DNA from: Candidatus Roizmanbacteria bacterium
GTDB taxonomy: Bacteria; Patescibacteriota; Microgenomatia; UBA1406; GWC2-37-13
Length of the DNA: 64,000 nt
Assembly: GCA_012798265.1 (NCBI GenBank)
Contig: JAAZNM010000004.1
Span: forward strand, 62,001-126,000
Direction: 5' to 3'
Part shown: positions 18,282 to 57,144 of the stretch, one piece after another
How positions within the stretch are numbered: the stretch's first letter is position 1
Layout: each line of letters starts with the position of its first letter
The notes under the pieces: model-generated
What the model was told of the DNA's origin: nothing
The model's database searches: none
The model's input: the letters and a program-made list of their open reading frames with translations, nothing else
Position numbers and translations under genes: made by a program

Positions 18282-19991
18282 TTAAAACTGGCCCTCTTTC
18301 TTCAATTGGGCTAGTTTCTTAGCCATAAGCTCTCCTTGTTGAGGCGGCATCAATCCTTTATTCGCTAGAGTCTCATAAATTTTGCTGCCCATGATTTTTC
18401 CACCAATTATCGGCATTTGGGTCAAAGAGGTAAATGTGCCAAAGCCGGTTTGGGCACCGGTCCAAGCCGCTCCGACTCCGCCAAAGAAGGTGCCAAGACC
18501 AAGATTAATCGGCATCGGTTTAATTCCTAACATCTCTCTAACCATTTTTACAAGATCGGGTATCATCAAGATAATACCCATGCCGATGAACATTGAAAAA
18601 GTGTTGGCGCTGAGGCTGCCTAAAAATGGAGGAGCCCAGAACGTATACACGGGATTGTTGGTGGTATTAGCTATGATGTATCCTGCGATAAGCAAAATTA
18701 CGACAACCGGAAAGGTCAAAAGGTCGCCCATCAAATTTTTCAGCCAATAGGAAAAAGCATTTTTTCCAGGGATAGCTTCAAATACTATAAAAATAGGAGC
18801 AAATATAATCATAAGGACTATTCTTATATAAGTGGTAAACAACAGGAAAAATATTCTAAAAAGGACAAATATGATGGTAAGAAGAACTAAAAGTCCAATC
18901 ACCAATTGAGGAGCAAGAAAAAAACCAAAAGCCAAGGCAAGTATTATTATGATAAAACCAAGAACAATGTTAAGGGCCCCACTTGGTATTTTTCCCAGGG
19001 AAAAAGTAAAAGCATCTATATTGTCAAAAATTTCCGTAACTTTACCTAAAGTCGAGATATTACTTAACTGGAAAAAAAGCCAACCACCCAATATCAACCC
19101 AACAATTCCTCTTATTAAGATATTTACGAATAAAGGCATTATCTTCAAAAGCTCGTTGCCTAATCTGAAAAGAAAATCAAAGCTGGACAATATAGGTATA
19201 CCACCTTTGTTGGGAATCATAAATTCACCCAAAGATCCAAGATCGCCGCTAATAAGTTTTTGTTGGAAATCGGCAGGATTATAAAAAGAACCGTTATTGC
19301 TCATAATGTAAATAGCTATTCCGATCATAAAGTACATTATGTCGATAAGGAATCCGGCGATGGCAAAAGAAAAAGTGATTAAAAGAAGAGCTATCACTAT
19401 TCTTGGCAAACTGTTTTCAACCGAAATTACCGTCTGGGGATTAATCTTCATCCGGAACATGATCATAAAACCGATACTGATCATAATCAGTACTAGAATA
19501 AGATAGGTGATGTCCCGAAAAACCTTCCAAAGATTCATAAACGGTTTAACCGCAGCGAAACCAATTCCTTCAGCCGCATATGTTTTGGGGATAAAACCGC
19601 TGTTTTGCAGTCCCGAGTATACCCAGTATGCGCCAGAAGCCGGAGGATTTATATATGGAAGCACGATCATGTTAGACATCATACCCAATATGCTTGTTTT
19701 ATAGTTTTTTTCGCCGTCGTCAGGATTATCGGTACAAGCTTCTCCAAGCGTTCCGCATACGACTATTCTATATATGGCTAAACTGATTTTTCCTTCCTTG
19801 GTGGAGGCAAGTTTTTTGTCGCTTAATACTTTATATATATTTTCCCGGTTTTTTTGTATGGGGTCGTAGCTTATTTTTGGCTTGTCCTTGTTTATAAAAT
19901 AAAACAATAGGCTTACTACGGAGACATATACGGCTACCACCAGAAATAATTTTCTTAAAAGTAATAGGGTTTTCTTAAAAAAAGAAGCCAT
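18282..19991 (-). CDS. Polytopic membrane protein, VirB6/TrbL-like
   Basis: A 569-residue protein with an N-terminal signal-anchor helix (about 10-32), an extracytoplasmic segment (about 33-150) containing one Cys pair (CGTLGEAC), then about eight to ten long hydrophobic helices (about 155-495) and a cytoplasmic Gly-rich tail ending in basic helices (GELMAKKLAQLKKEGQF). The helix pattern, including FRMKINPQTVISVENSLPRI after the second helix, is like CPR polytopic proteins annotated as VirB6/TrbL-type channel subunits of type IV secretion. This family assignment is by layout, not by a strict motif. It is the last gene of a probable three-gene minus-strand transcript behind the two anchored proteins. 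Confidence 0.6.
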   Translation of the reverse strand: MASFFKKTLLLLRKLFLVVAVYVSVVSLLFYFINKDKPKISYDPIQKNRENIYKVLSDKKLASTKEGKISLAIYRIVVCGTLGEACTDNPDDGEKNYKTSILGMMSNMIVLPYINPPASGAYWVYSGLQNSGFIPKTYAAEGIGFAAVKPFMNLWKVFRDITYLILVLIMISIGFMIMFRMKINPQTVISVENSLPRIVIALLLITFSFAIAGFLIDIMYFMIGIAIYIMSNNGSFYNPADFQQKLISGDLGSLGEFMIPNKGGIPILSSFDFLFRLGNELLKIMPLFVNILIRGIVGLILGGWLFFQLSNISTLGKVTEIFDNIDAFTFSLGKIPSGALNIVLGFIIIILALAFGFFLAPQLVIGLLVLLTIIFVLFRIFFLLFTTYIRIVLMIIFAPIFIVFEAIPGKNAFSYWLKNLMGDLLTFPVVVILLIAGYIIANTTNNPVYTFWAPPFLGSLSANTFSMFIGMGIILMIPDLVKMVREMLGIKPMPINLGLGTFFGGVGAAWTGAQTGFGTFTSLTQMPIIGGKIMGSKIYETLANKGLMPPQQGELMAKKLAQLKKEGQF

Positions 19992-20477: not shown

Positions 20478-21542
20478 TTATGGCTTTTTAACTCCTAAAA
20501 TTATACGGTATTTGGGAAAAGGATATTTACTGTTTTCGTTAAAGGGAGGCGCTTGAAAGCGGCCGTAAAAAGGGTCGTAAGCCCAGACGTTGCCGCCGCT
20601 GTCTATATCGGTGATCCAGAAATAATGGCCGCAACCGCCGTCGCAGTAATTGGCCAAAGCAAACAGAGTCCAACCTCCGTTTAGGTATCCTTTCATGTCC
20701 GACGCCACTTCGTTGACGGTTGCCAAACCGTAGTATTTGTATCCGGTCGTGGTTAACCCGAGGCTGTCAAGGACTATCTTGGCCGAACTGTAATATGACC
20801 CACCGCATCCGATATACTGCCCTTTTTGTTTATAATAATCGACCATAGTCTGCGGATTGGTATTTTTGTCTTTATAGGAGGCGACGATCATGGCGATACT
20901 GGTCGGTCCGCATCCGGCCCGGCAGACCGTACAACCGTCAGGTAACGGATAGTTGTCGTAGCTTCCGCCGCATTGAGAGTAATAAACCAAGTTGCCGGCC
21001 GGAACCGGAACTGAAGAAGGCAAAGAAGTAGGGGTAATCTTATAAGTAGGTTTTGGAGTAAGAGTGATGTCGGCTGTTTTTTTAACGATCACTAATAGGT
21101 CGGTCAATAAATTGGCTATGCCGTTACTGACAACACCTTTATTTTTATCGGCGCTTCCGGAGCTTGTTTTGGAAGTACTGTTCTCGATATAAATATCAGG
21201 GTGTTGATCTCTGTCGGGAAGTTGATTCTTTTTTATCCAGTCGTCAATTTTTTGGTCAGCCTGGTCGTTTTTTTTGTCGATAACGTATTTATCTATTTCC
21301 GGGTGATATTCAGCCGTAAAGTAGTCGTCACTATAATAATACTTATTAGTATTGGTATAGGTACTGTCGTTTGACTCCTTATCATTATTAGAAGACTGAT
21401 TGTTCTGATACCCATATATGGGGGTAGGTGTGACCGAAGCCGTCTGTTTTTTCTCCTTTCGCTGAAGAAAAAAACTTAAGCCGATAATTATGATAAGGAG
21501 TATCAGCAAAACAAATCCTAAAATCGCGACGATTTTCTTCAT
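20478..21542 (-). CDS. Membrane-anchored C39-like (papain-fold) cysteine peptidase
   Basis: A 354-residue protein from ATG 21542 ([10 protein letters not shown]); the frame is open 7 codons earlier but overlaps the divergent gene's leader. One anchor helix (about 5-26), Ser/Asn/Thr linkers, the shared module (73-106), then a C39_2-type domain (about 183-354). Catalytic residues are visible: Cys211 in [13 protein letters not shown], His306 in [13 protein letters not shown] and Asp323 in AYDPFYG. Further Cys (191, 204, 207, 246, 300, 304) may form disulphides. It would act outside the membrane, cutting peptide or peptidoglycan cross-links; the substrate is unknown. It is divergent from the Clp ATPase gene, with 35 bp between starts. 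Confidence 0.78.
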
Positions 21543-21577
21543 TGACAAAAAACAAAAAATCAATAATAATAAAAAAT

Positions 21578-51341: not shown

Positions 51342-51620
51342 TTAGATAAATATAATTTTTAAAAGATATAGGGCGATAAAACCGAACAGTATATATTCTA
51401 GCACAATTTTCAGCCTGAGACTGTTTTTGAAAGCGTGGTGATAGACTCCCCAGCCGATATAGAAAAAGACAAATGACAAAAAAATAAGGAAGTCGGTAGT
51501 TCTTTCGCCCTGAAAATAGCTTAACGCAACCAAAAACAGGACTCCGGAAAAGATCAGAAGCAGATAATCAAAGGCGTGTTTTTTGATCTCTTTTTGCCAA
51601 TATCTAAGGATTTTTTTCAT
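51342..51620 (-). CDS. Small three-TM membrane protein, unknown
   Basis: 92 residues with a basic N-terminus (MKKILRYWQKEIKKHAF), then three hydrophobic helices (about 18-36, 44-60, 72-91). No recognised motif. The stop is one base from the start of the nucleotidyltransferase gene, and its start overlaps the CAP protein stop (ATGA at 51617-51620), so it sits inside a tightly packed envelope gene run. Confidence 0.6.
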   Translation of the reverse strand: MKKILRYWQKEIKKHAFDYLLLIFSGVLFLVALSYFQGERTTDFLIFLSFVFFYIGWGVYHHAFKNSLRLKIVLEYILFGFIALYLLKIIFI

Positions 51621-52483
51621 ATTATGGCTCCTTTGCTGAGAAAAAAAGCCAACCCCAAAATTATAAAGCCGATGAATATCGAATGGGCGACGGTTTTGCC
51701 GCCGAGATGAATGACGTTGAAGCGGGCGGCAAAATAAATATCGGCAATCAGGATTATAAATAAGAGGGCGAAGAAGACCAGATCAAACCTTAAAGCTAAA
51801 GCGGCGATATTGATTTTAGGTTGGGAAGTTTTTTGAGCCAGGACTTGGGATCTGACCGGCTGGGGATAGTGTGTGTCCGTCTGGGTCGCGGATTTTTCAG
51901 AAATGGCCGCGCCGTTTAGGGGTTTGGCAAAGGTTTGGACGACAAGAGTGGTTTCTTCACCGTTTAGAGTGCCGTTGACTATCGCCAGACCGATGTCGGT
52001 ATACTCGGGACGGAGAATGTTTTCCCGGTGGCTTGGGGACTGCATCCAACCGTCAATCACCCCCTGGGAAAAAAGGAAGTTTTTAGCCAGATTTTCACCG
52101 GCATACTCATATCGGTACCCGGCGTCCAGTATGAAACTCCAGGGAGTGGTACCGTCAGGACCATAGTGAGACCAGTAATTGCGTCGGAACATATCTTCGG
52201 CTTTTTTAGTGGCCGCTTCGGCCAATTGTTTGTTATAGGCAAGCGGAGGAAGATTGTTTTTTTGCCTCTGTTCGTTGGTCAGTTGGTAAATCTTGTCGAC
52301 GGTTATGTCTGTGGCAAACCCGAGGACGCTGTTCCCGGATTTGATCTGTTTGAGAGCGAAGGTAAAAATCAGGGCAAAGGCCAAGTAATATGTCAGGAAA
52401 TCGACATGAAGGCTGCGTCCCCGGAAATCATTTTTTTCCTGAGGCACAAAAAGATGACTAAGGACTTGAACGATTTTTTTCAT
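51617..52483 (-). CDS. CAP/SCP-domain exoprotein with membrane helices
   Basis: 288 residues: an N-terminal membrane helix (about 28-46), a CAP (SCP/PR1) domain (about 60-190), a linker, and two C-terminal helices (about 225-285). CAP landmarks are LTNEQRQKNNLPPLAYNKQL, AEDMFRRNYWSHYGPDGTTP (first His), YAGENLAKNF and WMQSPSHRENILRPEYTDIG (second His), with GLAIVNG and VVQTFAK closing the fold. Bacterial CAP proteins are secreted, and roles as lipid-binding or protease-like proteins have been proposed; the activity here is not known. Coupled at both ends by ATGA overlaps. Confidence 0.85.
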   Translation of the reverse strand: MKKIVQVLSHLFVPQEKNDFRGRSLHVDFLTYYLAFALIFTFALKQIKSGNSVLGFATDITVDKIYQLTNEQRQKNNLPPLAYNKQLAEAATKKAEDMFRRNYWSHYGPDGTTPWSFILDAGYRYEYAGENLAKNFLFSQGVIDGWMQSPSHRENILRPEYTDIGLAIVNGTLNGEETTLVVQTFAKPLNGAAISEKSATQTDTHYPQPVRSQVLAQKTSQPKINIAALALRFDLVFFALLFIILIADIYFAARFNVIHLGGKTVAHSIFIGFIILGLAFFLSKGAII

Positions 52484-52886: not shown

Positions 52887-54209
52887 TTATTTTCTTATTC
52901 TAAGCAAAAGGGAAACAATAGTCAAAAGGGAGTAGGAAAAAGAAGAAAAAGACAATGATTTTATAAGAAAAAAGTTTTTATTAGTTTGTGTGTTTGCAGT
53001 ATCCGTTCCTAAAACATTACCTTTATCGTTGACAAGTTTGTCATTATTTATAGTGGACAGGCCAGTTTTTTTCATAACTTGGACGTAATTGGAATATTTT
53101 TTAGCGACTGGTTGTTTTGTTTTCGTAGATGAAGAGGTTGATTTAATATTATTAATTTTTTTAATAGCGGTTGGGTTTAAAGATTTTTCCGTTATTTCTT
53201 CCTCAAAACATGTGTTGTTTACCATTCCCTTGCTTGGTATTTGCAAACAAAAATCAGCCGAGGCGAAACTCGTTCTTCCCCAACTTTTTCCTTGCTCTCC
53301 GTCATAGTACCGGAACCGGTCCTTGAGATTTTTATCAAAATCCATAAGTCTGACCTCATCAGAGTCATTATTGAAAATAGACGAGTTCAGGTTAATGGTA
53401 TTATAACTTTTGGCTGGTATTTCCAAAGAAAAGATCCTAGGAGAAGAACCGCTGTCTTCCGTATCGTCCAGGTACCAGTTTTTCAGTAAAGCCGTAAAGT
53501 CGTTGTCGTTATATATCTCGACCCATTCGCCGTCTCCCGTTTCCGGATAACTCATTATTTCGGAAAGAATAATATTATCGTAGGGAATTGGAGTCGGCGT
53601 CGGCGTAGCCGTCGGAGTCTCTATTTTAGCGGTAGGAGTCGGTACGGCTTCGGTTAGCAAAGCCGGAGTTGAGGTGGTTGCCGGTATAGCGGTTGGAGAA
53701 AAATACTCTTCAAAAGAGATATTGTCAAAGTAAGCGGCTCCCGAGGCAACGAGCAATCTTACTTTTGCCGAGCTTATCCCTTCGGCCGGATTTTTGATTA
53801 ACGATAGTTCTTGCCAGGCGTCAGTATTGGTTGGGAAAGGGAAGTCGTCGGTCGATGACTGGCTGCCGCTGCCATCAGTCGATTTATACCAGGCGACCCT
53901 TAAAAAAGCTTTTTCCGGAAAAGGGGAAATCAATTTTATATAAGTGCCAATTTTATAAGTAAGAGAACCGCTGATGTCGGTAAGGGTTTGTTCAATCCCG
54001 TAAGAGCTGGTTTTCGGATTGGCGATCTTAGCCGATTGGCTGCCTTCATAATAAATATCGCTGGCCGTAGAAAAGTTGACGCCGCTGTTATTAGTCTTCC
54101 AGCTCTGCACCCCGTTTTCAAAACCGGGATTTTGGATAAGATTGATGGCGTCTGCTTTTTTCGGAAACAAAACTAATAATAGACAAAGCAATAATAATTT
54201 TATCCTCAT
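52887..54209 (-). CDS. Secreted protein with carbohydrate-binding-like and lamin-tail domains, C-terminal anchor
   Basis: About 440 residues (ATG 54209 gives MRIKLLLLCLL; ATG 54218 is also possible). Signal peptide ending near KKADA; a jelly-roll domain (about 22-170) beginning NLIQNPGFENGVQSWKTNNS, like carbohydrate-binding modules; a Thr/Pro-rich linker with TPTATPTPTPIP; a lamin-tail (LTD) domain (about 205-320) with ILSEIMSYPETGDGEWVEIY, NDNDFTALLKNWYLDDTED and DEVRLMD; a Ser/Thr/Lys stretch; and a final hydrophobic helix with RIRK. Probably displayed on the cell surface; no enzyme motif is seen. Confidence 0.8.
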   Translation of the reverse strand: MRIKLLLLCLLLVLFPKKADAINLIQNPGFENGVQSWKTNNSGVNFSTASDIYYEGSQSAKIANPKTSSYGIEQTLTDISGSLTYKIGTYIKLISPFPEKAFLRVAWYKSTDGSGSQSSTDDFPFPTNTDAWQELSLIKNPAEGISSAKVRLLVASGAAYFDNISFEEYFSPTAIPATTSTPALLTEAVPTPTAKIETPTATPTPTPIPYDNIILSEIMSYPETGDGEWVEIYNDNDFTALLKNWYLDDTEDSGSSPRIFSLEIPAKSYNTINLNSSIFNNDSDEVRLMDFDKNLKDRFRYYDGEQGKSWGRTSFASADFCLQIPSKGMVNNTCFEEEITEKSLNPTAIKKINNIKSTSSSTKTKQPVAKKYSNYVQVMKKTGLSTINNDKLVNDKGNVLGTDTANTQTNKNFFLIKSLSFSSFSYSLLTIVSLLLRIRK

Positions 54210-54213
54210 TTTT

Positions 54214-54256
54214 ATCACTTGATGAACTTGATAAACTTTATAACTTGAAGAACTTG
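54214..54256. repeat. Imperfect 9-bp tandem repeat upstream of the lamin-tail gene
   Basis: About five units of the type ATGAACTTG (TATCACTTG, ATGAACTTG, ATAAACTTT, ATAACTTG, AAGAACTTG) reach into the start of the gene. They may shift promoter or start-codon spacing if copy number varies. Confidence 0.6.
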
Positions 54257-54345: not shown

Positions 54346-55536
54346 CTATTTAAAAGTCTCCGCAGAAAATATTTGTCCTTTTGAATAATGTTCACTGAAC
54401 TTTTTATCTGGACCGTAATAAGGATCGTGCATAATATAGTCACTTCCATCTATAGATTTTAGTACTACGAAGTGCATACCGTAGTAACCCGCTCTAATTC
54501 CAACAATAACCGGACGGCCATTTTTTATTTCATCATCTATTTGAGAAACAGAAAGATTATAGCTATTTAAACCATTTGGCCAAGGATTCATATTCCATCT
54601 ATAGTTCATAAAAGCAGTATTTAAATAAAAATAATTTGAATTTGAAGCGATGTTTGAAGGGTTAGTGTCAACTCCATATTTTTTTAATACCATTGCAACG
54701 CTAGTTAATAAACAACCAACATCAAGAATATTTTCACCTGAGTTACCAATCCTTGAGTTAGCCCAACGTGCATCTCTTTGTGAATAATACCAACCATCTG
54801 ATCCAGAGCCAAATCCGTTAGCTCCAATTATTCCACCTCCCGCAGTTTGGGTAAATGATTTAAAAGCCGCTAACTGAGCTTGAGCTTGTGAGAGGAGATT
54901 TTGATAAATATTTTCATCATTATTAGTTATTGCTAATAGATTTTTTTTCGCATTTTGTTGATTTTTTAAATCAACTTTTTGCTTATCAAGAGTAATCATC
55001 AAGTTATCCAGATCGATTTTTTTCTGTTCCCGGATTTTTTTTTGTTCTTCAAAATTAAGCTTCGTTTGCTGCACTTGGATCAGAAGTTTTTGGTTATTTT
55101 GTTGGGTGATCTTAATATATTTGAACCGGTTAAAAAAATCATTGACGGTGTCACTATCCAAAACGGCGCTATAAAAAGAGATTGATTTGTTTTTGTAATT
55201 TTCCACGACTTTACTGAGCAGAAGTTTGGTGTAATAGTTCATCGAAGTATCAAGGCCGTCAATCCGTTCTCCCAAAACGTCAATTTCTTTTTGTGTCCTT
55301 TCTATATTTTGTTCAGTTTCCTGTATTTTAAGCTGGGTCAGATAGATCTGAGTATCCATGTATTGTATTTGTGAAGAAAGGGTATTTTTTTGTTTTCTTA
55401 TATCGGTTAATTTCGCCGAGTACTCTTCAATCTGTCTTTGGAGTTCTTGTTGGCGGCTGTTATCGTCGGCAAAGATAGGTTTAAGATACAAAAAAAAGAC
55501 GACTAATACGAAAAAAACCAGTAATCCTTTTTTCAT
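54346..55536 (-). CDS. Secreted coiled-coil protein with C39-like peptidase domain (probable FtsEX-controlled hydrolase)
   Basis: 396 residues: signal peptide (about 1-23, cut after FA), a long coiled coil (about 26-225) like the EnvC/PcsB/CwlO type, a Gly/Ser linker (231-247), and a C39_2-like papain-fold domain (about 248-396). Catalytic candidates: Cys275 in LDVGCLLTSVAMVL, His355 in YYGMHFVVL, Asp371 in IMHDPYYG. The gene follows ftsE-ftsX on the same strand (37 bp), the place where PcsB/CwlO/EnvC-type regulators or hydrolases act. The catalytic domain differs from the usual CHAP, NlpC/P60 or LytM. DNA for the C39 part is more AT-rich than that for the coiled coil. Confidence 0.8.
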   Translation of the reverse strand: MKKGLLVFFVLVVFFLYLKPIFADDNSRQQELQRQIEEYSAKLTDIRKQKNTLSSQIQYMDTQIYLTQLKIQETEQNIERTQKEIDVLGERIDGLDTSMNYYTKLLLSKVVENYKNKSISFYSAVLDSDTVNDFFNRFKYIKITQQNNQKLLIQVQQTKLNFEEQKKIREQKKIDLDNLMITLDKQKVDLKNQQNAKKNLLAITNNDENIYQNLLSQAQAQLAAFKSFTQTAGGGIIGANGFGSGSDGWYYSQRDARWANSRIGNSGENILDVGCLLTSVAMVLKKYGVDTNPSNIASNSNYFYLNTAFMNYRWNMNPWPNGLNSYNLSVSQIDDEIKNGRPVIVGIRAGYYGMHFVVLKSIDGSDYIMHDPYYGPDKKFSEHYSKGQIFSAETFK

Positions 55537-55573
55537 GATGTTATTAATTATAATTCAAAGACGGATGAGATTA

Positions 55574-56467
55574 TTATTGAAGATATTTATCAGTCGCCAT
55601 GTAGCTTGAAAAAAGCGATATGACTAAACCAAACAAAGTAGAAAGGACATAAGTAATTAGCAAAAATTCAAGATTAAGCGGCCAGACAGTCAGTTTATAA
55701 ACTTCAAAATTGAGAATAAGATTAGGGATGCCTTTAAGATATGAGGAAAGGAACGGATTGAAGTAGGCGAGAACGGCTCCGATAATCATAAAAGAGCTGG
55801 TGGAAGCGACAAAACCGAAGAAAGCCGCCTCAGATAAGAAAGGGGCCCGTATATAACTTTTGCGGGCGCCGAGAAGTTGCAGTAATTGGATCTCATCTTT
55901 CTTAAGGGCGATCTTAAAAGACGTAGTTGTGATAAGGACGATTATAGCCATGAACATCAGGAATCCAAAAAAACCAAAGGACAGCTTTCTCAAAATATTG
56001 GTCAGATTCAACAATCGGTTGACGATATCTTTCTGAAAAACCACTTCGTCCACCCCGGGCTGTTTTTTAAGAAACTCGGCAATCTCAGGCAGAAAAGCCG
56101 GTTTGTTGGCAAATATTTCAAGCGAAGCCGGCAATATGTCTGATGAGACCATCTCCAAAAGCAGGGGATTGTCTTTGTTTAAGTCCTTATAGATCTGGAA
56201 AGCCTCGTCTTTGGAAATGTATTTGATCGACAGTACTTTGCCAGAGGTGACGAGCTCATCTTTAACCTTGAAAATTTCGTTTGTATCGGTCTTGGTTTGG
56301 AAATAGACGGTTACCTGGGGTTTGCTTTCGACATAGCCGAGCAGCCCCGACAGAAAAGAGATCGAAATGAAAAGCGCCGTTGACAGAAATAGGGTAAAGA
56401 AAAGGACCAAAAAAGCCGTCAAAGATTGGTAGGGTGTCCTTCTGATTGAAGTCAGCATCTCTTTCAT
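55574..56467 (-). CDS. ftsX: Cell division ABC transporter-like protein FtsX
   Basis: 297 residues: a cytoplasmic N-terminus ([20 protein letters not shown]), helix 1 (about 18-40), an extracellular loop (about 45-165) with [20 protein letters not shown] and [20 protein letters not shown], then three helices with [40 protein letters not shown] between them, the permease signature. FtsX passes an ATP-driven signal from FtsE to an extracytoplasmic cell wall hydrolase. Coupled to ftsE by an ATGA overlap (56464-56467). Confidence 0.92.
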
Positions 56468-57144
56468 AGGTCATACCCTCCTTTTCTGACGTCCTTGGCG
56501 ATTTTCCCGTCTTTGACAAGGATAACTCTTTTTTGCAGGCTGTTAACGATATCGCTGTTGTGGGTGGCGATAATGATGGTTTTTTTGCCCTCGAGTTTTT
56601 TGAAGATCTTGATTATTTCCCAGCTGGTTTTCGGATCAAGGTTCCCGGTCGGTTCATCGGCCAGGATGATATTGCGATCGCCGATTATCGCGCGGGCGAT
56701 CGCCACCCGTTGCAGCTCGCCGGCCGAAAGTTGCAGAGGAAAAACTTTTTCCTTACCGCTTAATCCGACCAGAGCCAGTGCTTCCTTTACCTCTTTTTTA
56801 ATATGATGTTTTTGACGGTCGTCCATGACCTTAAGGCTTAGGGCGACATTTTCATATATGGTTTTGTCGGGAAGGATTTTAAAATCCTGAAAGACAATGC
56901 CGATTTTTTGCCTCAATTTGTCTGTGTCTTTAAACTTCTTGTCGGTGATATCAAGATTGTCAATTGTCACTCTGCCGGACGACGGAGCAAATTCACGGGA
57001 GATGAGTTTGAGAATGGTGGTTTTGCCGGCGCCGGAAGGGCCGACCAAAAAAACAAACTCGTTGTCGGCTATCTCAAAAGAGACATCGTTTAAAGCCGTA
57101 TTGCCAAGAGGGAACTTTTTGCTGATATCGTCAAAAACAATCAT
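56464..57144 (-). CDS. ftsE: Cell division ATP-binding protein FtsE
   Basis: 226 residues, the usual length. [20 protein letters not shown], Walker [37 protein letters not shown] (Q-loop with the FtsE-type 'FQDFxLL'), signature [15 protein letters not shown], Walker [14 protein letters not shown] and the switch His in [10 protein letters not shown]. It binds ATP at the septum and controls FtsX. First of the ftsE-ftsX-C39 genes; the upstream gene is 22 bp away. Confidence 0.94.

Follow-up and report, generated by a model that had tools for sequence, protein, structure and literature searches.

The window studied here, a stretch of 64,000 nucleotides from a Candidatus Roizmanbacteria contig, contains ftsE, ftsX and a third gene for a secreted coiled-coil protein with a C-terminal C39-type domain. 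This third protein is called the FtsEX partner. We put at about 0.75 the probability that the partner gene encodes the wall hydrolase of the FtsEX cell-separation machine, with a catalytic end that is an interchangeable cassette, either C39 or a circularly permuted LytM domain, carrying its own inhibitory helix. The host genome measures 954 kb and is 99% complete, and the partner is the sole full-length match in it. The nearest named relatives of the host are Roizmanbacteria and other Microgenomates. The host probably makes a cell wall, because six transpeptidase and two FtsW/RodA matches were found in its genome. One canonical M23 protein scored above the cut-off elsewhere in the same genome. 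The relatives of this protein represent a natural domain-swap experiment on how FtsEX can gate hydrolases so unlike one another.

A first-pass annotation made from the sequence alone had described the order ftsE-ftsX-partner and a coiled coil followed by a C39-type domain. The coordinates and the order, on the minus strand, were borne out by the open reading frames (ORFs) and Pfam. ftsX and ftsE share a 4-base overlap, and the partner gene starts 37 bases past the end of ftsX. The top NCBIfam model for FtsE was TIGR02673 FtsE with 250.1 bits, slightly below its cut-off of 264.85. Pfam Peptidase_C39_2 (PF13529) matched partner residues 250-373 (E-value 6.1e-11; 43.5 bits, cut-off 24), and PF03412, the bacteriocin C39 family, was likewise above its own cut-off. 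The domain is fused to a secreted coiled coil and not to an ABC exporter. The coiled coil itself gave matches below cut-off to CC_PcsB, PcsB and EnvC. CC_PcsB reached 21.6 bits of the required 27, and passed the cut-off in the relatives L028, L051, L063, L064 and L066. The NCBIfam equivalog models for EnvC (NF008644, 23.2 bits against 270) and PcsB (NF046104, 28.9 bits against 450) matched the coiled-coil part below cut-off, and no CHAP match was obtained.

To place the partner among its relatives, a search of 57 relatives of the host was made, which found the protein in 51. Seventeen named loci were added by a scan of genome contigs. Nearly all the genomes compared are probably metagenome-assembled, and the domain type of each protein was read from its sequence. 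Many matches ended near residue 233, where the coiled coil ends. The 60 non-redundant coiled-coil relatives comprised 32 with C39, 25 with M23, one with a truncated M23 and two cut by contig ends (L053 and L070), to which no type was assigned. FtsX was present on the same strand in the locus of 50 of the 60. This architecture, occurring in dozens of genomes, is above chance. The first-pass annotation had suggested a search for this coiled coil joined to different catalytic domains, and the M23 relatives provide exactly this. The C39 domains were assigned by eye to three subtypes (a, b and c), which are dissimilar, with cross-subtype identity of 25-40% in the listed pairs. An excess of contig-end cuts was considered as a sign of strain-level switching. 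Six pieces are cut in this way (L052, L053, L064, L065, L068 and L070); since 5 of the 51 matching genomes are affected, about the number expected by chance on a rough estimate, the idea was dropped.

The M23 domain of the relatives appears from its motif order to be a circularly permuted zinc LytM fold. Positions 61-96 of the Pfam M23 profile match first and positions 2-52 last (10 proteins in each of two Pfam runs). The protein accordingly reads GNTG..STGAHLHFEV...DP, then WP...QGYG...HTGID...YLHV, and then ends. In 21 of 21 aligned permuted domains, both histidines of HxH, the histidine and aspartic acid of HxGxD and the histidine of YxH are invariant, which places the zinc ligands at H46, H48, H116, D120 and H165; this alignment leaves out one degenerate copy, L045, whose locus has no FtsX. 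A profile of the permuted domain matched the solved M23 chains 9m7n and 9gy1 in two stretches out of chain order, and the matched chains given in alignment are canonical. The AlphaFold2 (AF2) model of the permuted domain of L044, built from 5 rows only, had a predicted local distance difference test (pLDDT) score of about 30. Of 286 Patescibacteria genomes sampled, at least 67 (counted by eye) gave a match spanning both halves of LytM in permuted order. Annotation may miss or misname the domain, because profile searches show partial M23 matches. No report of a permuted LytM, or of FtsEX with C39, was found in the literature searched, a search whose scope excluded most subscription papers and all preprints.

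Further copies were seen away from ftsX. L045:5950-7227, the same gene as L049, is a second coiled coil with permuted LytM in a genome whose ftsX-linked copy is L031. Its zinc binding is probably lost, because its HxH motif reads HTPF, and it may be an EnvC-like regulator. L227:1578-2693 and L230:1135-2259 are permuted LytM proteins with HTHF replacing HLHF, on contigs other than that of FtsX. The protein encoded behind FtsX in these two genomes is of CHAP type or weakly resembles CHAP (L141 and L131). Beyond Patescibacteria, the permuted domain was sampled in phage, plasmid and viral collections and in solved structures. When viral sequences were scanned with the permuted LytM profile, 29 loci were among the matches listed; all matched within query residues 1-97, about one half of the domain, and none had the permuted form. 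Scanning viral sequences with C39 yielded 6 loci, 24-30% identical. In a tblastn search with the permuted domain of L059, 80% cover was reached in none of 32 phage and none of 8 plasmid records. Phages and plasmids as carriers of the cassette were therefore not found in these scans, which are weak negatives, and this candidate was set aside.

FtsX and the coiled coil descend together, and the C-terminal cassette has a separate history. A joint tree of FtsX and coiled coil, built from 46 rows after L050, L062 and L021 were dropped for long branches, required 9 changes of domain type, 8-10 across 1000 bootstrap trees and at least 6 when only well-supported branches are counted. With C39 split in its three subtypes, 15 changes were required, at least 9 of them on supported branches. 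Nine or fewer changes were given by 4 of 1000 label shuffles, a result aided by the all-LytM outgroup. The FtsX-only tree, which includes L050, L062 and L021, showed 11 changes in the whole set and 10 among the 41 labelled ingroup rows; the shuffle mean for this ingroup was 10.5 (6-12), so type follows the FtsX tree no better than random. The coiled-coil-only tree (59 rows) gave 12 changes. Among C39 pairs, identity correlated with that of FtsX at r 0.23 for the catalytic domain against r 0.82 for the coiled coil. For permuted LytM pairs the catalytic-domain value was r 0.74, indicating that LytM has been inherited more steadily than C39.

Two sister pairs show the exchange in place. L014 (C39) and L044 (LytM) have FtsX proteins 84% identical, and those of L043 (C39) and L046 (LytM) are 88% identical. 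In both pairs the partner proteins agree to about residue 215-220 and are entirely different beyond. Homologous DNA flanks the gene on both sides, and similarity resumes shortly past the stop codon. The sister relation of L014 and L044 has good support in the FtsX tree (98/92) and weak support in the joint tree (89/40); on the coiled-coil-only tree they are not sisters, yet fall within one supported clade of four. The clade of L041, L043 and L046 is supported on the FtsX, coiled-coil and joint trees alike. The reverse case is represented by L024 and L043, whose C39 domains are 82% identical and whose FtsX proteins are 52% identical, identity rising at the same junction. Just 3' of the gene, a 93% identical stretch shared by L041:7302-7403 and L043:6093-6207 also matches inverted. 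Such a stretch forms a hairpin or a small inverted repeat right behind the exchanged cassette and may be a terminator or a recombination site.

The same was seen in a second family, f57, the family of G101. Permuted LytM is present in 22 of its 27 genomes; C39 in a coiled-coil-sized frame is confined to 4 of the 5 genomes that lack it. FtsX is at most 53 bases away from every one of the 26 partner genes. On the tree the four C39 rows take four places, giving 4 type changes, and one of them forms a starred pair with a LytM protein as its sister (L275/L280). G340 and G341 also have C39 in much longer frames, which represent another gene; in L278 and L279 of this family, C39 of the same profile lies within frames of 1269 and 1463 codons, away from the gene linked to FtsX. 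Exchange driven by selection, for example by inhibitors, rival toxins or phages targeting an exposed hydrolase, is a doubtful alternative to neutral swapping. It would fit the frequent changes, the three dissimilar C39 subtypes and the sisters that differ behind near-identical FtsX proteins. The same pattern is, however, expected from neutral recombination, and type showed no link here to an inhibitor, an immunity gene or a host shift.

The exchanged unit includes more than the catalytic domain. Columns of FtsX showed no association with domain type beyond chance (best p 1.2e-3, equalled in 5 of 40 shuffles). A few columns of the coiled coil between 28 and 205 were associated, the best being 196 (p 1.2e-4) followed by 29 and 189 (0 of 40 shuffles). 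In columns 206-236 the association becomes near-perfect from 221 on (p 1.9e-11, 0 of 40 shuffles), with the motif QLAxFxxFxxxxG accompanying C39 and EYAAIQGIxxGxGTE accompanying LytM. The junction falls at one place, residues ~219-222. The near-perfect association at this helix, the position of the restraining arm, indicates that arm and catalytic blade move together and that the coiled-coil lever and the FtsEX switch stay. This contrast between FtsX and arm columns is purely evolutionary evidence in favour of the restraining-arm model, and it indicates which chimeras should work.

The C39 domain retains the residues of a cysteine peptidase. Cys275, His355 and Asp371, named in the first-pass annotation, were confirmed on the translation, and they are invariant in all 32 C39-type homologues; loss of the Cys/His pair in homologues, which that annotation had singled out as evidence to the contrary, was seen in none. 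The full invariant set is Q253, R254, D255, W258, G274, C275, H355, D371 and P372. The AF2 model of the partner has a mean pLDDT of 79, with 75-95 per block of ten in the catalytic part, and C275 lies at the start of a helix as in papain folds. Foldseek with this model retrieved FtsEX-EnvC (8tzl), RipC (8idc) and PcsB (4cgk). The nearest structure to the C39 part of the model (residues 247-396) is PeiR (8z4h; VIA-align Z 12.9, 128 residues, 2.6 A, 13% identity). PeiR is described in part of PMC6189367 as a pseudomurein endoisopeptidase which hydrolyses the pseudomurein walls of methanogens. By analogy with LytM and CHAP, which are alternatives at the same locus, cutting of a peptide bond in the wall is the likeliest role of the C39 domain.

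We infer wall activity, gating by FtsEX and inhibition by the helix, and the following course of events is proposed. FtsE would hydrolyse ATP, and the extracellular domains of FtsX would squeeze the coiled-coil hairpin, as suggested by homology with EnvC, PcsB and RipC. The squeezed hairpin would pull the inhibitory helix off the catalytic domain, and the freed C39-type cysteine peptidase would cut cross-link peptides of peptidoglycan at the septum. In the relatives the same lever would drive the permuted zinc LytM, the two domains having been exchanged for one another repeatedly, each as a single cassette together with its putative inhibitory helix. As the cassette swaps with its own arm while FtsX and coiled coil are unchanged, the gate would need only the contact of arm and blade; FtsX and the catalytic fold would not have to fit each other.

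A survey across the phylum extends the picture. FtsX was present in 118 of 126 sampled Patescibacteria genomes. Its loci included 27 with permuted M23, 15 with canonical M23, 15 with CHAP and 7 with C39, a total of 64. Among the 27 permuted cases, a pattern search showed the two zinc motifs in permuted order for 19, and 8 were recognised by half-profiles only. Pfam was run on 20 of 47 unclassified FtsX neighbours and found CHAP above cut-off in 12 and below it in 2 (L131 and L148); the CHAP count of 15 comes from a profile built on the 12 Pfam matches, and one of the 15 (L165) is not the next gene. We think it likely, with somewhat less confidence than for the partner gene itself, that FtsEX and the coiled coil form a general mechanical actuator in Patescibacteria with a plug-in blade. 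C39, CHAP, canonical LytM and permuted LytM would occupy one slot, with C39 and permuted LytM exchanged repeatedly, arm included, in at least two lineages. If so, the permuted LytM would be a new form of the LytM fold, used by a bacterial phylum for cell separation.

Several results weigh against a wall hydrolase coupled to FtsEX. No same-strand FtsX was found for 10 of the 60 relatives, for some since the locus ends there. Four of the coiled-coil proteins with permuted LytM (L055, L058, L059 and L060, of family f2 in the same order) have about 4 kb upstream without FtsX by BLAST or profile, and uncoupling from FtsEX or relocation is possible for them. In 54 of the 118 FtsX loci of the survey no such hydrolase gene was recognised adjoining; 32 have another gene there, and in 22 the contig ends or no sufficiently long frame is present. 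Members of PF13529 also include proteins of other or unknown function. Behind PeiR, a papain-like toxin, PCAT1, a C39-like protein of B. anthracis and ComA follow at Z 11-11.7. No Foldseek match of the model reached E 0.001, and the structural ranking therefore orders folds and is no proof of function.

The above-cut-off match to PF03412 and the nearness of PCAT1 and ComA would also suit a protease akin to the C39 of bacteriocin transporters, one that trims peptide leaders or secreted proteins and cuts no wall. We regard this as improbable. The domain has no ABC-transporter fusion and sits instead on an EnvC/PcsB-like coiled coil that is secreted. The slot behind FtsX is otherwise filled by wall-hydrolase folds (M23 and CHAP), LytM replaces the domain exactly in sister lineages, and PeiR is the nearest structure. 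A C39 fold serving as a scaffold which switches on a separate amidase is more improbable still. Such a role has a precedent in EnvC, whose own dead LytM domain activates amidases (PMC11627006, in part). Here the triad is invariant in 32 of 32 proteins and, L045 left out, the zinc ligands in 21 of 21 aligned permuted LytM domains; no Amidase_3 was found in the host genome, leaving none for such an activator, and Amidase_2 was not searched for. Least probable is a chimeric assembly, with coiled coil and C-terminal end drawn from different strains: although the named relatives are metagenome-assembled or uncultured and several genes are cut by contig ends, the flanks are homologous on both sides, the junction is constant, each type occurs in single-contig genomes (C39 in G025 and G326; permuted LytM in G053, G200 and G292) and none of 27 genomes holds both types in coiled-coil-sized frames.

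The first-pass annotation had proposed an FtsEX partner with a C39-like catalytic domain, which is supported, and had argued for domain capture from a more AT-rich C39 part, which is not: GC is 0.333 in the coiled coil and 0.338 in C39. GC at third codon positions (GC3) falls from 0.337 to 0.218 between these parts, the whole gene being AT-rich against the window median GC3 of 0.50. A sharp drop from 0.50 to 0.20 occurs in L026. Across 31 C39 relatives, the GC3 of the two parts is not different (Wilcoxon p 0.62). Capture read from base composition was rejected, as GC is equal and GC3 is no family feature; single recent captures may be visible in GC3. The idea of capture survives in another form, as replacement seen directly in relatives, which is much stronger evidence than the composition argument, and not as one capture in one lineage.

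The features of the locus are collected in the table. Two more genes lie downstream of the partner gene on the minus strand. Positions 52887-54218 encode a probably secreted protein with carbohydrate-binding and lamin-tail domains, and positions 51617-52483 a CAP-domain protein with membrane segments recognised by eye. A second C39_2 protein is encoded at 20478-21563 (minus strand, 361 amino acids), with an N-terminal membrane segment and a PF13529 match. Beside it, at 18282-19991 (minus strand), is a large multi-span membrane protein, TrbL/VirB6-like by eye. The second C39_2 protein may serve to open the wall for a type IV secretion-like system. L072 also encodes a protein that matches C39 weakly.

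Table. Features of the ftsE-ftsX-partner locus in window coordinates; aa, amino acids.
Feature	Position	Strand	Basis
ftsE, ATPase, 226 aa	56464-57144	-	Pfam ABC_tran, E-value 9.6e-36
ftsX, permease with extracellular domain, 297 aa	55574-56467	-	Pfam FtsX_ECD, E-value 8.9e-17; FtsX, E-value 3.1e-9
FtsEX partner, coiled coil and C39 domain, 396 aa	54346-55536	-	ORF, Pfam, translation
Signal peptide, residues ~1-24	55465-55536	-	By eye: two Lys, long hydrophobic run, then Ala-Asp
Antiparallel coiled coil (lever), residues ~25-218	54883-55464	-	CC_PcsB 103-164; AF2 helices 53-116 and 131-204
Helix and linker at restraining-arm position, residues ~219-247	54796-54882	-	Type-associated columns 221-236; AF2 helix 208-231
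C39-type papain-fold catalytic domain, residues 248-396	54349-54795	-	PF13529; AF2 model; similarity to PeiR
Gln253, candidate oxyanion residue (putative role)	54778-54780	-	Invariant in 32/32 C39-type homologues
Cys275, candidate nucleophile	54712-54714	-	Translation; invariant in 32/32
His355, candidate catalytic base	54472-54474	-	Translation; invariant in 32/32
Asp371, third residue of candidate triad	54424-54426	-	Translation; invariant in 32/32

Among known systems, CwlO belongs to the NlpC/P60 hydrolases. The partner resembles FtsEX-PcsB (CHAP), FtsEX-CwlO and FtsEX-RipC (NlpC/P60) in being a secreted coiled coil with a C-terminal papain-like domain, and presumably in being gated by FtsEX. 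It differs from them in its C39-type domain, which alternates repeatedly with a zinc LytM behind one coiled coil. PcsB and RipC are FtsEX-gated hydrolases with papain-type domains, as described in part of PMC11627006. With FtsEX-EnvC it shares the coiled-coil hairpin, a helix at the restraining-arm position and, in nearly half of the relatives, a LytM-type domain. The LytM of EnvC is dead and amidase-activating (same source, in part), whereas that of the relatives is permuted and keeps its zinc ligands, and in the host the domain is C39, with no Amidase_3 in the genome. PeiR (PDB 8z4h and 8z4n), C39-like and of papain fold, acts on a peptide cross-link of the envelope; unlike the partner it is viral, has pseudomurein-binding repeats and an archaeal substrate, and lacks a coiled coil (PMC6189367, in part). 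The C39 peptidases of bacteriocin transporters (PCAT1 and ComA; PF03412) are alike in fold and in the Cys-His-Asp layout, but they are domains of ABC exporters cutting double-Gly leaders, while the C39 of the partner is secreted on a coiled coil. Circular permutation has a precedent among wall-hydrolase folds in the LRAT-like and YaeF groups of NlpC/P60, according to part of PMC6403190. There the permuted fold is that of a cysteine peptidase, and here it is the zinc LytM/M23 fold.

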